IMG/VR virus record: IMGVR_UViG_3300027969_002585
Location: 1 to 20,766 of that record
Length of the DNA: 20,766 nt
Reading direction: 5' to 3' (one strand)
From: a virus
Shown here: positions 5,963 through 12,429 of the stretch, in pieces
Position numbering within the stretch: the stretch's first letter is position 1
Layout: each line of letters begins with the position of its first letter
Notes under the pieces: model-generated
What the model saw: only the letters and a program-made list of their open reading frames with translations
Databases searched by the model: none
What the model was told of the DNA's origin: nothing
Program-made: the position numbers and the translations under genes

Positions 5963-6403
5963 TCAGAAATAAGTCAAAGCGGTTACAGTTTCTTTGGCAG
6001 ATAGAGTTTTATCTCTGCTTTCACAGTACCTTGCCCAAAGAGTATCCGCTTTTTCATAGTTTTTAGCTACTACAGCCTTTTGATACTGTGTTCTAAGAAT
6101 CTGACTGTCTGTGAACCATTTGCCATATTCTTGGTCTAATCTGTAGATTTTATCTACGGTTGCAGAATTGGTATTTTTTGTCAATAAATTGGCCATTCTG
6201 ATTGCTGTGGCGTTGAGATTAATGTTGCTGTAGATAACACTGTTGTGCCTATAAAGATGTTTTGTGGTTTCTTCACTGACAATTAACACATCACCAACAA
6301 GAATGCCTCCAGCCACCTTCAGTGGCAGAATGTGGTTGTCAGCTATGAGTCTGCGCTGTGCGTTAGCTACTAAATTCTCTAAACGCCGCTGTATGTTTGT
6401 CAT
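5963..6403 (-). CDS. Unknown phage protein
   Basis: 146 residues, basic N-terminus (MTNIQRRLENLVANAQRRLIADN). A short beta section (ILPLKVAGGILVGDVLIVSEE) is followed by a helical C-terminal half (IYRLDQEYGKWFTDSQILRTQYQKAV...). No signal peptide or membrane segment. The ATG at 6403 follows directly on the U-run of the previous gene's terminator, and its own TAAATA motif (6430-6425) is fused to that terminator. No clear Shine-Dalgarno is free on the short leader; the only AAGGA lies in the terminator stem. Family not recognised; the context is structural. Confidence 0.82.
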   Translation of the reverse strand: MTNIQRRLENLVANAQRRLIADNHILPLKVAGGILVGDVLIVSEETTKHLYRHNSVIYSNINLNATAIRMANLLTKNTNSATVDKIYRLDQEYGKWFTDSQILRTQYQKAVVAKNYEKADTLWARYCESRDKTLSAKETVTALTYF

Positions 6404-6425
6404 AAAAAAAGGACCTATGGTCCTT
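6404..6425 (-). terminator. Rho-independent terminator after the holin-like gene
   Basis: On the minus strand a 7-bp stem AAGGACC / GGTCCTT with an ATA loop is followed by a run of T down to 6404. It ends the 6443-6790 transcript. The next gene's ATG (6403) abuts the T-run, and that gene's TAAATA motif overlaps the first bases of the stem. Confidence 0.8.
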
Positions 6426-9040: not shown

Positions 9041-9852
9041 TTGACTCGTTCCATCATTTTGCGGAACCAAGAAGGTGTTCCTGTTTGCGCACTTTCAAAC
9101 GAAATAACATTTTCCGGCAAGGCAATACCTTGCTTGCCCAATGTTTCTCTTGCACCTGCAACTAGTTCTTCGTAGTTGGGCAGTTTCTTGATGTAGTTGA
9201 GAATTGCATCTACTGATTTAATATCTTTAACTGTGGCAGTTTGGCCCAACAGCACTTTGGCAATTTGATTCCAATCGTTGCCATTGGGCAATAGTTCGTC
9301 AGTGGTAGCATTCAGTATTCCGTGCTTGGGGCTGTACTTGATGCCGCGGGCACGAGCAATTGAGCTCAATAGAATATGACGATGCTCACCTCGATATTCA
9401 CCTTGCCCACCAATCATTGAGCCTTGTTGAAATTTAGGGTTAGCTGAAAACATAAAGTCTGCCTGTACAAATCCATTGTCTGGACTGCCTTTGATTGGCA
9501 CCTTCCAGTGTACATTGTCGCCGCTGAGTTTGATGTTTTCTTTGCCAAATTGTGATATCAGTTTTTCAGCAAATGATTTCTTATCTACTTCGTTGGCATC
9601 CACTGACAGGTCTAGATCACCTGAACTGTTCTTTTCAAAGGTGCCATCCGGATCTTCTTTACGTCCAGTAGTACCCAGCCATTTAACAGGCTTTTTGTCA
9701 TCAAGATGCTTTTCTTTGGTAAAGTCCAAGCCTGTGATTTTTTCAATGTAGAGAATGGTTTCTTCTACGTCTCCTGTGGCAATACGCTGTGTTAGCGATT
9801 GCTTTTCTGGGCCTTTGAATACGTTGCCGCCTTCTGACAGTTTACTGATCAT
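9037..9852 (-). CDS. Pol-beta-superfamily nucleotidyltransferase-like protein
   Basis: 271 residues. The signature is WLGTTGRK (about 58-65) followed by SSGDLDLSVD (about 76-85), then VQADFMF further on. This fits the hG[ST]...Dh[DE]h pattern plus the third carboxylate of pol-beta-type nucleotidyltransferases. A later segment (GEYRGEHRHILLSSIARARG) is basic and could bind the substrate or nucleic acid. It overlaps the small gene before it by 11 bases and the ligase-like gene after it by 4. The substrate is unknown: adenylation or end addition on RNA, DNA or a protein are all possible. I have moderate-to-good confidence in the fold and none in the target. Confidence 0.82.
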   Translation of the reverse strand: MISKLSEGGNVFKGPEKQSLTQRIATGDVEETILYIEKITGLDFTKEKHLDDKKPVKWLGTTGRKEDPDGTFEKNSSGDLDLSVDANEVDKKSFAEKLISQFGKENIKLSGDNVHWKVPIKGSPDNGFVQADFMFSANPKFQQGSMIGGQGEYRGEHRHILLSSIARARGIKYSPKHGILNATTDELLPNGNDWNQIAKVLLGQTATVKDIKSVDAILNYIKKLPNYEELVAGARETLGKQGIALPENVISFESAQTGTPSWFRKMMERVK

Positions 9853-10126
9853 TGCTTTCTTCCAATTTTTTCTTGAGTTTACGTGCTTCTGCTATTCTGC
9901 GGACACCACGTGTGAACTTTGCAGGGTCTTGCCCTTTGATTGCATTAATAAGCCTGCGTTCAAGTTCGTCTGCTGAAGCAGAATCATAATTTTTATGAAT
10001 ACTTTCCAATAGATTGATAGCTGAATTGATGATGTTGGCAGCACGACTTTCTATCAACGAATCAGTGCTGCGCACATCGGCAATAGAATTCAGTTCCTGC
10101 AAAATCGATCTGGTTTGAAGCTTCAT
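9842..10126 (-). CDS. Small helical phage protein, first gene of the nucleotidyltransferase/ligase-like operon
   Basis: 94 residues, almost all predicted helix (ILQELNSIADV; AANIINSAINLLESIHKNY; DELERRLINAIKG; GVRRIAEARKLKKKLEES), with a basic C-terminus. No known family. It is the first gene after the divergent promoter hub and carries both a consensus sigma70 promoter (10194-10166) and a TAAATA motif (10150-10145), so it could be transcribed both early and late. The 11-base overlap with the nucleotidyltransferase gene suggests that the products work together, perhaps as an accessory or nucleic-acid-binding subunit. Confidence 0.82.
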   Translation of the reverse strand: MKLQTRSILQELNSIADVRSTDSLIESRAANIINSAINLLESIHKNYDSASADELERRLINAIKGQDPAKFTRGVRRIAEARKLKKKLEESNDQ

Positions 10127-10144
10127 TGAAATGTTCCTATTGTG

Positions 10145-10194
10145 TATTTAACTCAATTGAGTTATAGTATAACTAAACACTAAATGGTTGTCAA
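10145..10194 (-). promoter_or_regulatory. Leftward sigma70 promoter with overlapping palindromes
   Basis: Minus strand: TTGACA (10194-10189), 17 bases, then TATACT (10171-10166). Two perfect palindromes overlap the -10 and the start region: AGTTATAGTATAACT (10160-10174) and AACTCAATTGAGTT (10150-10163). These are good candidates for repressor or activator sites. A TAAATA late-type motif (10150-10145) follows. It drives the small helical protein / nucleotidyltransferase / ligase-like operon. Confidence 0.8.
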
Positions 10195-10198
10195 GAGA

Positions 10199-10228
10199 TT
10201 GACTTTTTGTGCGGTCGCAGCATATAAT
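10199..10228 (+). promoter_or_regulatory. Rightward sigma70 promoter
   Basis: TTGACT (10199-10204), an 18-base spacer, then a perfect TATAAT (10223-10228). Its -35 stands four bases from the -35 of the leftward promoter, so the two probably share regulators. A CTAAATA motif (10231-10237) follows directly. Confidence 0.82.
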
Positions 10229-10236
10229 GACTAAAT

Positions 10237-10256
10237 ACTCAGTAGAAACACTGAGT
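10237..10256 (+). promoter_or_regulatory. 5'-terminal mRNA hairpin of the rightward operon
   Basis: A 7-bp stem ACTCAGT / ACTGAGT with an AGAAAC loop starts about two bases after the expected transcription start (about 10235). Such 5' stem-loops are known to slow mRNA decay from the 5' end. No T-run follows. Confidence 0.55.
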
Positions 10257-10281
10257 CTACATAAACACACAGGAAAACGAA

Positions 10282-10458
10282 ATGAAATTCTTATCAGATC
10301 GAATGTTAGCTATTATGGAACGTTTAAGTGAAATGTTTCCAGGAACCAGTTATCAAAGCCGCTTGGATCAATATCTAAGTACCAAAGGCATTACCGATGC
10401 CGCACAGTTGGAAAACTACATCCGACAATTTAATTCTCAAAAGGAAACTTATCTATGA
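10282..10458 (+). CDS. 58-aa DUF3563-like small protein
   Basis: Starts at ATG after ACAGGAAAACGAA, a good Shine-Dalgarno. The product begins MKFLSDRMLAIMERLSEMFP, followed by a helical part with RLDQYLSTKGITDAAQLENYI. The R-L-D-x-Y-L-S ... D-L-E pattern resembles DUF3563, a short family I know from Burkholderiales and other proteobacteria, with no known function. It is the first gene under the strong rightward promoter, so probably made early. Its stop overlaps the next start as ATGA. The gene call is good; the family match is tentative. Confidence 0.72.
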   Translation: MKFLSDRMLAIMERLSEMFPGTSYQSRLDQYLSTKGITDAAQLENYIRQFNSQKETYL

Positions 10459-10571
10459 AAACAATCTTAAACTCAATCTGGTCAGTGCTTGAAGCATTTG
10501 GTCAAGCTCGTGCTGCCGCAAGTCTAGCACGTATGGGCGACATCGAAGGCGCTAAGGCAGTGTACAAGTGA
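10455..10571 (+). CDS. 38-aa small protein
   Basis: Starts at ATG overlapping the previous stop (ATGA). The product is MKTILNSIWSVLEAFGQARA followed by AASLARMGDIEGAKAVYK: an amphipathic helix, then a basic helix. I have the impression that similar very short proteins occur in proteobacteria and phages, but cannot name a family. Translational coupling to both neighbours supports it as real. A host-takeover or membrane-associated role is conceivable but unsupported. Confidence 0.65.
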   Translation: MKTILNSIWSVLEAFGQARAAASLARMGDIEGAKAVYK

Positions 10572-11341: not shown

Positions 11342-11614
11342 ATGTCACAATTCGAAATCCCAAAGCTACCAGAAGTTAAATTCAACAAGAACGGCTACGA
11401 AATCCGTACAGACATCTTGGGCATGGCCAAGAGCCTAGTACAAGACGACTTCCAAGCCAAATTCCAAGGATGGGAAATGACTGCTACTCGCGATGAGAAG
11501 ACCGGTCAAATCGTTACTAAAGTAGACATGCCACAGTTTCCAGGACTTGACAAAGTTCTAGAAACAGCAGAGAAAATGTACGCATTTGTCAATGCTGGCG
11601 CTAACAAGAAATAA
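11342..11614 (+). CDS. 90-aa phage protein of unknown function, well expressed
   Basis: 90 residues: MSQFEIPKLPEVKFNKNGYE..., a central MAKSLVQDDFQAKFQGWEM, and a C-terminal helix PGLDKVLETAEKMYAFVNAG. The short Pro-rich N-terminus and amphipathic helices recall phasin-like or small nucleic-acid-associated proteins, but I cannot assign a family; I think relatives exist in T4-like phages. It has its own consensus-like promoter, a strong ACAGGAG Shine-Dalgarno and a bidirectional terminator, so it is a single-gene unit likely expressed early at a high level. Confidence 0.82.
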   Translation: MSQFEIPKLPEVKFNKNGYEIRTDILGMAKSLVQDDFQAKFQGWEMTATRDEKTGQIVTKVDMPQFPGLDKVLETAEKMYAFVNAGANKK

Positions 11615-11656
11615 GCTATTAGCCGCATAGCGGTATTAAAATAAAAATAGTAAAAG

Positions 11657-11679
11657 AAAAGCCCCTTTCGGGGCTTTTT
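11657..11679. terminator. Bidirectional rho-independent terminator
   Basis: A 9-bp stem AAAAGCCCC / GGGGCTTTT with a TTTC loop (GAAA on the other strand). It is flanked by T-runs in both directions, ending the rightward 90-aa gene and the leftward desaturase gene (stop at 11681), which converge here. Confidence 0.93.
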
Positions 11680-11680
11680 C

Positions 11681-12385
11681 TTATGTGCGTAGTTTGGCCA
11701 GTCTTAAGAACTGTAGAATTTGTATGTAGGTCCAACCTATGTCAATTTCCCACCAACGGTGTTTGAATTTGGCACTGGCTCCATCTGCGTGGTGATTGTT
11801 GTGTAGCTCTTCACCACCTATCCATATGCCCCAAGGCACTAGGTTACGGCTGGTGTCTTTGGTATCGGTGTTGCGATATCCCCACCAATGACTGACGCCA
11901 TTGACCACACCAGCTGCCCAGAATGGGATCCAGATCATTTGAATACCCCACACTATCAGTCCCCACGGTCCAAAGAGCAAGCAGTCTATGACCAGCATTA
12001 AAAGAATACCTGAGCGACTGTGTGCGGAGTAAAGGTTGCGTTCAATCCAATCATTGGGGCAGTCTTTGCTCAGTGAGTCGACCATTGCGGTGTCTTTGCT
12101 GGCTGCGTGATATAAGAATGCTCCGCCAAATAGCACACGCCAAATGCCGTAGATCTGCGGACTATGTGGATCGCCCTCTTGATCTGAGCGTTGATGATGT
12201 TTGCGATGTATGGCTACCCATTGGCGAGTAACCATACCTGTGGTCAGCCAAAGCCAAGCTCGCATAAAATGGTTAACCGCAGGGTGAAATTGTACAGCTC
12301 TATGTGTTTGGCTTCTGTGCAAATACAGCGTTACACAGGCTATAGTGATTTGTACCATCACCAAGGTATAGATTATTATATTCAT
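11681..12385 (-). CDS. Membrane fatty acid desaturase (delta-9 type), C-terminally short
   Basis: 234 residues. This di-iron membrane enzyme introduces a double bond into acyl chains. All three histidine boxes are present: HRSQTH (H23, H28), HRKHH (H60, H63, H64) and HNNHH (H195, H198, H199), plus a further His in NGVSHWWGY. Hydrophobic segments lie at about 2-20, 40-55, 125-150 and 150-165. The sequence resembles, from memory, betaproteobacterial desaturases that carry a longer C-terminal part; this one ends soon after the third box, so it may be a trimmed version. It would alter membrane fluidity in infected cells. Electron donors must come from the host. Transcribed against its neighbours, ending at the shared terminator. 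Confidence 0.93.
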   Translation of the reverse strand: MNIIIYTLVMVQITIACVTLYLHRSQTHRAVQFHPAVNHFMRAWLWLTTGMVTRQWVAIHRKHHQRSDQEGDPHSPQIYGIWRVLFGGAFLYHAASKDTAMVDSLSKDCPNDWIERNLYSAHSRSGILLMLVIDCLLFGPWGLIVWGIQMIWIPFWAAGVVNGVSHWWGYRNTDTKDTSRNLVPWGIWIGGEELHNNHHADGASAKFKHRWWEIDIGWTYIQILQFLRLAKLRT

Positions 12386-12400
12386 CGTTTACTTATCCTG

Positions 12401-12429
12401 TTGACAACTGCTCAAAATAGTGCTATAAT
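12401..12429 (+). promoter_or_regulatory. Perfect consensus sigma70 promoter for the HAD gene
   Basis: TTGACA (12401-12406), exactly 17 bases, TATAAT (12424-12429): both hexamers and the spacing are ideal. The start would fall at about 12435-12437, on the ATG at 12435, so the mRNA is predicted to be leaderless. Confidence 0.88.

Follow-up and report, generated by a model that had tools for sequence, protein, structure and literature searches.

The divergent region analysed here lies in a 20.8-kb virus record (20,766 nucleotides, the whole of which we call the window), and the relatives of its flanking genes are jumbo phages. The virus is a jumbo myovirus, a giant freshwater bacterial virus. 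The left arm opens with a virion gene (9842-10126, minus strand), whose 94-aa product belongs to the virion structural protein family phrog_11854 (PHROG E=2.5e-19). Its homologues are 39-47% identical in PA5oct, CBB, 121Q and other jumbo phages, and one is also found in Sinorhizobium phage Phosso. The right arm is an uncharacterised small-protein operon. Its first ORF (ORF1, 58 aa, 10282-10458, plus strand) has homologues downstream of the module described below in many phage contigs, none of them found in annotated phages, and the family had no credible Pfam, PHROG or NCBIfam match above the cut-off. ORF1 was considered as a regulator and set aside: its predicted structure has three helices (mean pLDDT 74) and gave no significant fold match. 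The second ORF (38 aa, 10455-10571, plus strand) is by eye of an ARAAxLARxGDxxxAxxIY type, and in L148, L169, L372 and L376 comparable small ORFs, again judged by eye, come immediately after the module.

Relatives are encoded by 506 stretches in IMG/VR, from which we fetched 80 loci, one of them on a 353-kb contig (G001). We compared 41 distinct upstream regions and set one aside for its different context (L022), leaving 40 orthologous regions. Since these sequences have common ancestry, in many cases recent, fractions of the 40 measure conservation and should not be counted as independent tests. Motif counts upstream of genes refer to predicted genes, nearly all from G001. A database search found no annotated phage DNA close to the window, and Rfam returned no known RNA family in the region, its two weak matches near 11570-11692 being below threshold.

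Two sigma70-type promoters face outward with their -35 boxes 4 bp apart, TTGACA-17-TATACT to the left (10194-10166, minus strand) and TTGACT-18-TATAAT to the right (10199-10228, plus strand). Each matches the consensus at 11/12 positions, with hexamer spacing inside the 16-18 bp range. Shuffled sequences contained 0.56 promoters of at least 11/12 per window; a divergent pair of at least 10/12 occurred in 3% of them and one of at least 11/12 in 0/200. The back-to-back promoters named in the initial annotation are thus present beyond chance on both strands, and the evidence is good that promoters diverging from this region serve both flanking arms. The leftward 11/12 version recurs in 13 of the 40 orthologous regions and a rightward promoter of at least 9/12 in 11; judged from these alignments, the strong pair is lineage-specific. 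TTGACA/TATAAT is enriched upstream of predicted genes, mainly those of the 353-kb relative. The window holds another outward-facing sigma70 pair, at 12374-12429, whose rightward member is a perfect TTGACA-17-TATAAT and whose leftward member scores 10/12. Of the genes on its two sides, one is fatty-acid-desaturase-like and the other weakly matches a nucleotidase (NT5C).

Outside this pair lie two outward TAAATA boxes of the T4 late type, at 10145-10150 (minus strand) and 10232-10237 (plus strand). Both are present in 40/40 orthologous regions, so that the late-type motifs of the initial annotation stand, and the rightward box also occurs in 57/58 distinct upstreams of the small-ORF family. The 7-mer TAAATAC (10144-10150, minus; 10232-10238, plus) is not enriched within the window (4 against 3.3 expected); the case for it rests on its conservation and on enrichment across a relative's genome: TAAATA precedes predicted genes, mainly of that 353-kb relative, 98 times against 12.9 expected. 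Outward late boxes occupy 12/35 divergent gaps of G001, which makes this arrangement a common one. Late promoters of the form ATAAATA have been reported for CBB, together with a gp55-like sigma factor, and for GAP32 (PMC5259590). Homologues of the CBB factor, CBB_244, were found in three relatives (G001, G009 and G011; 37-41% identity, E 3e-52 to 4e-58) with the CBB protein as query, whereas the Pfam Sigma70_r2 profile gave no late-sigma match; the 20.8 kb of the window have no such gene in view. The boxes therefore resemble T4-type late promoters (TATAAATA, gp55 sigma) and those of CBB and GAP32 in having a TATAAATA-like box in the -10 position, in lying upstream of structural and other genes, and in the gp55-like homologue of the window's relatives. 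They differ in that two outward boxes, with predicted starts, flank one gap and in some lineages overlap sigma70 promoters.

Between the rightward -35 and -10 hexamers lies a TGC-N4-GCA dyad (TGCGGTCGCA, 10210-10219), a proposed operator retained in 35/40 orthologous regions. Across 91 distinct upstreams, a TGC-N3/4-GCA dyad occurs in 58 against 6.7 expected. Upstream of small ORFs it ends 1, 3 or 10-13 bp before TAAATA, and the spacings of 1 and 10-13 bp differ by about one helical turn. At the other late promoters of three relatives the dyad showed no enrichment. Its phasing and this lack of enrichment elsewhere suggest a DNA site bound by a protein, a candidate regulator. Upstreams without the dyad often have TTTAATC...TTGTAAT at the same spot, as in L143, L171, L655 and L665, which have it in common 5' of TAAATA. 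That the late promoter of a widespread, uncharacterised small-protein operon carries a helically phased dyad is a first testable lead.

The rightward leader can form two mutually exclusive hairpins. P1 (ACTCAGT-AGAAAC-ACTGAGT, 10237-10256, plus strand, -8.0 kcal/mol) begins no more than about 2-4 nt from the start predicted for sigma70 (about 10235), and P2 (GTAGA...TCTAC, 10242-10260, plus strand) begins where late transcripts are predicted to start (about 10242-10243). At the DNA level P1 is a third dyad, ACTCAGTAGAAACACTGAGT, which the initial annotation did not name; 0 copies within 3 mismatches were expected, and it is the conserved one among the three dyads of the interval. P1 is lost in part of the relatives, which often retain P2 (among them L018, L048, L053 and L064). 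When 84 leaders were folded from a start 4 nt past TAAATA, the mean was -3.55 against -1.60 in shuffles; the signal was strong for starts up to 4 nt past the box and almost lost at 6. The small-ORF hairpins begin within about 4-5 nt of the end of TAAATA, and compensatory stem changes occur in L038 and L670. By eye, CAGTAGAAAC comes next after the right late box in all orthologous regions listed except L038. Late promoters of the three relatives examined do not in general carry the leader hairpin. In one clade of small-ORF promoters (L705-L722), TTGC-N3-GCAA directly adjoins TAAATA and the leader hairpin is missing.

Phage ahpC genes, too, have a stem-loop at the predicted transcription start. 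In 51 phage ahpC leaders a hairpin begins 6-8 nt past the -10, and 61-73% of these leaders fall in the lowest decile of their own shuffles at offsets 4-6. The stems vary in sequence yet still pair (TCAGT/ACTGA, ATAGT/ACTAT, AAGAAC/GTTCTT, ACAAC/GTTGT, CAGCG/CGCTG and ACTAGTG/CACTAGT). Such compensated stems favour a structure at the RNA 5' end. The conserved 5' stem-loop common to the small-ORF operon and to phage peroxide-defence genes is a second lead.

We consider it reasonably probable (roughly 65%) that the region combines early sigma70 and late gp55-like reading with a regulator-bound dyad and a stabilising 5' stem-loop. In this lineage, early reading in each direction would fall to host sigma70 polymerase; late reading in each direction, from the conserved TAAATA boxes, would fall to polymerase equipped with the phage's gp55-like sigma. 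Leftward starts would lie near 10159 and 10139. A candidate regulator would bind the TGC-N-GCA dyad, in helical phase 5' of the right late box. Early rightward transcripts would open with P1 and late ones with P2, stem-loops that may shield the 5' end from RppH/RNase E attack and so stabilise the message.

Bacterial mRNAs of the ompA and papA type carry stabilising stem-loops at their 5' termini. The leaders described here are alike in that a short stem-loop stands at their predicted 5' end and keeps its structure as the sequence changes. They differ in belonging to phage genes, for which stabilisation is putative, and, at the small-ORF operon, in having two overlapping hairpins for two start sites. 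PeSL (promoter early stem-loop) cassettes of T4-like phages likewise combine an early promoter and a stem-loop within one intergenic gap. Those cassettes are composites with a terminator, whereas P1 and P2 lie downstream of the promoter and 3' of the start, have no U-run and are absent from the window's terminator list. PeSL cassettes are cited in a passage of PMC4503421. More generally, secondary structure at the 5' end is a known means of mRNA stabilisation (PMC3997798).

A different role for the P1 dyad, as the DNA operator of a phage regulator controlling the small-ORF operon and peroxide-defence genes, is possible but rather doubtful. Pattern scans of viral contigs for its 16-bp core, TCAGT-N6-ACTGA, gave at least the matches listed; among these, most are at small-ORF promoters and others at phage ahpC, rubrerythrin, peroxiredoxin and rubredoxin genes (named by eye). 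G011 carries the same 16-mer at both its small-ORF operon and ahpC, and G001 matches at 15/16; the rubrerythrin gene of G009 lacks it. Among 59 distinct phage ahpC upstreams gathered irrespective of the motif, 22 match at 13/16 or better, against about 0.2% in shuffles. The 16-mer also occurs as duplicated or reversed copies, and in one clade (L117, L384 and L406) the TCAGT dyad sits within the -35/-10 spacer. An RNA-only role leaves this placement unexplained, and the re-use of one 16-mer together with the promoter-spacer copies suggests that some factor may read the sequence. Against a pure DNA operator, most of the remaining ahpC leaders have a hairpin at the same place, the predicted start, with unrelated but compensated stems, which moved this view to second place. 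Moreover, the dyad's position tracks the start site, and the regulator is only putative. A host operator was rejected: across 257 Gb of bacterial genomes the 16-mer is no commoner than chance would give (79 matches against about 74 expected, estimated by hand from base composition), which argues against a host regulon. Six Polynucleobacter matches represent one orthologous site 5' of a MoxR-like gene. A resemblance to the LexA box was dropped; a literature string search gave no match.

A trans-acting jumbo-phage factor might instead recognise TCAGTAGAAAC(AC/CA)TGA either as DNA or as an RNA hairpin, coupling the small-protein operon to phage peroxide defence (AhpC, rubrerythrin, peroxiredoxin, rubredoxin). 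We regard this as unlikely; if true, the factor would define a two-operon phage redox regulon. On two jumbo phage contigs (L393 and L370), peroxide-defence genes for AhpC, AhpD-like protein and peroxiredoxin (named by eye) adjoin one another or lie near GroEL/GroES-like ORFs.

The early-transcript hairpins of T4 I-TevI, e and soc, in which a late promoter is embedded, provide a precedent for a temporal switch (PMC2988022). By analogy, P1 would form only in early or read-through RNA, and late RNA without the left arm would refold and alter translation. As in T4, the late start is predicted inside the hairpin. The stretch from TAAATA to the expected late start contains P1's left arm, which late starts about 6 nt past the box would put outside the late mRNA, and P1 and P2 exclude each other. 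Here, however, the ribosome-binding site is not sequestered, the Shine-Dalgarno AGGA (10271-10274, plus strand) being outside both hairpins. In the four loci named above P1 is broken and P2 kept, and most ahpC hairpins come after a -10 rather than TAAATA. We therefore hold a temporal switch to be quite improbable.

The initial annotation had also proposed a master switch of both arms, acting through operator-like palindromes. Both are exact: AACTCAATTGAGTT (10150-10163) and AGTTATAGTATAACT (10160-10174), which contains the leftward -10, and they overlap that -10 and its start region. Perfect 14/15-mer palindromes number 3 in the window against 3.25 expected from shuffles, so neither is beyond chance. 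Both are lineage-specific, occurring in 7/40 and 10/40 orthologous regions, respectively; most regions lack both while keeping the flanking genes, an outcome that the initial annotation had itself named as refuting its proposal. With the palindromes at chance number and poorly conserved, many further divergent promoter gaps in a relative (the 12/35 of G001) and another sigma70 pair in the window itself, the master-switch operators appear largely refuted, and we give this reading almost no credence. In our preferred reading of early and late promoters with a bound dyad and a 5' stem-loop, the region is an ordinary divergent promoter under local control, with an interesting conserved right-hand leader and no mark of a master switch. 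For a jumbo-phage control region, the analysis thereby tells elements that are conserved from those that are accidental.

Related arrangements occur elsewhere. Another divergent gap, at 90393-90437 of G011, has TTGCACTGCAA between outward TAAATA boxes; its neighbours are an ORF of 425 aa, by eye isocitrate-lyase-like, and a basic ORF of 77 aa. In the window, a hairpin AAGGACC-ATA-GGTCCTT (6409-6425, minus strand) lies just 5' of the gene at 5963-6403; its G001 homologue (11842) comes after TAAATA, recalling T4 late-promoter hairpins. At G009 60946 and G011 128693, TAAATA is followed by hairpins enclosing the ribosome-binding site, as in the regulation of T4 e and soc.
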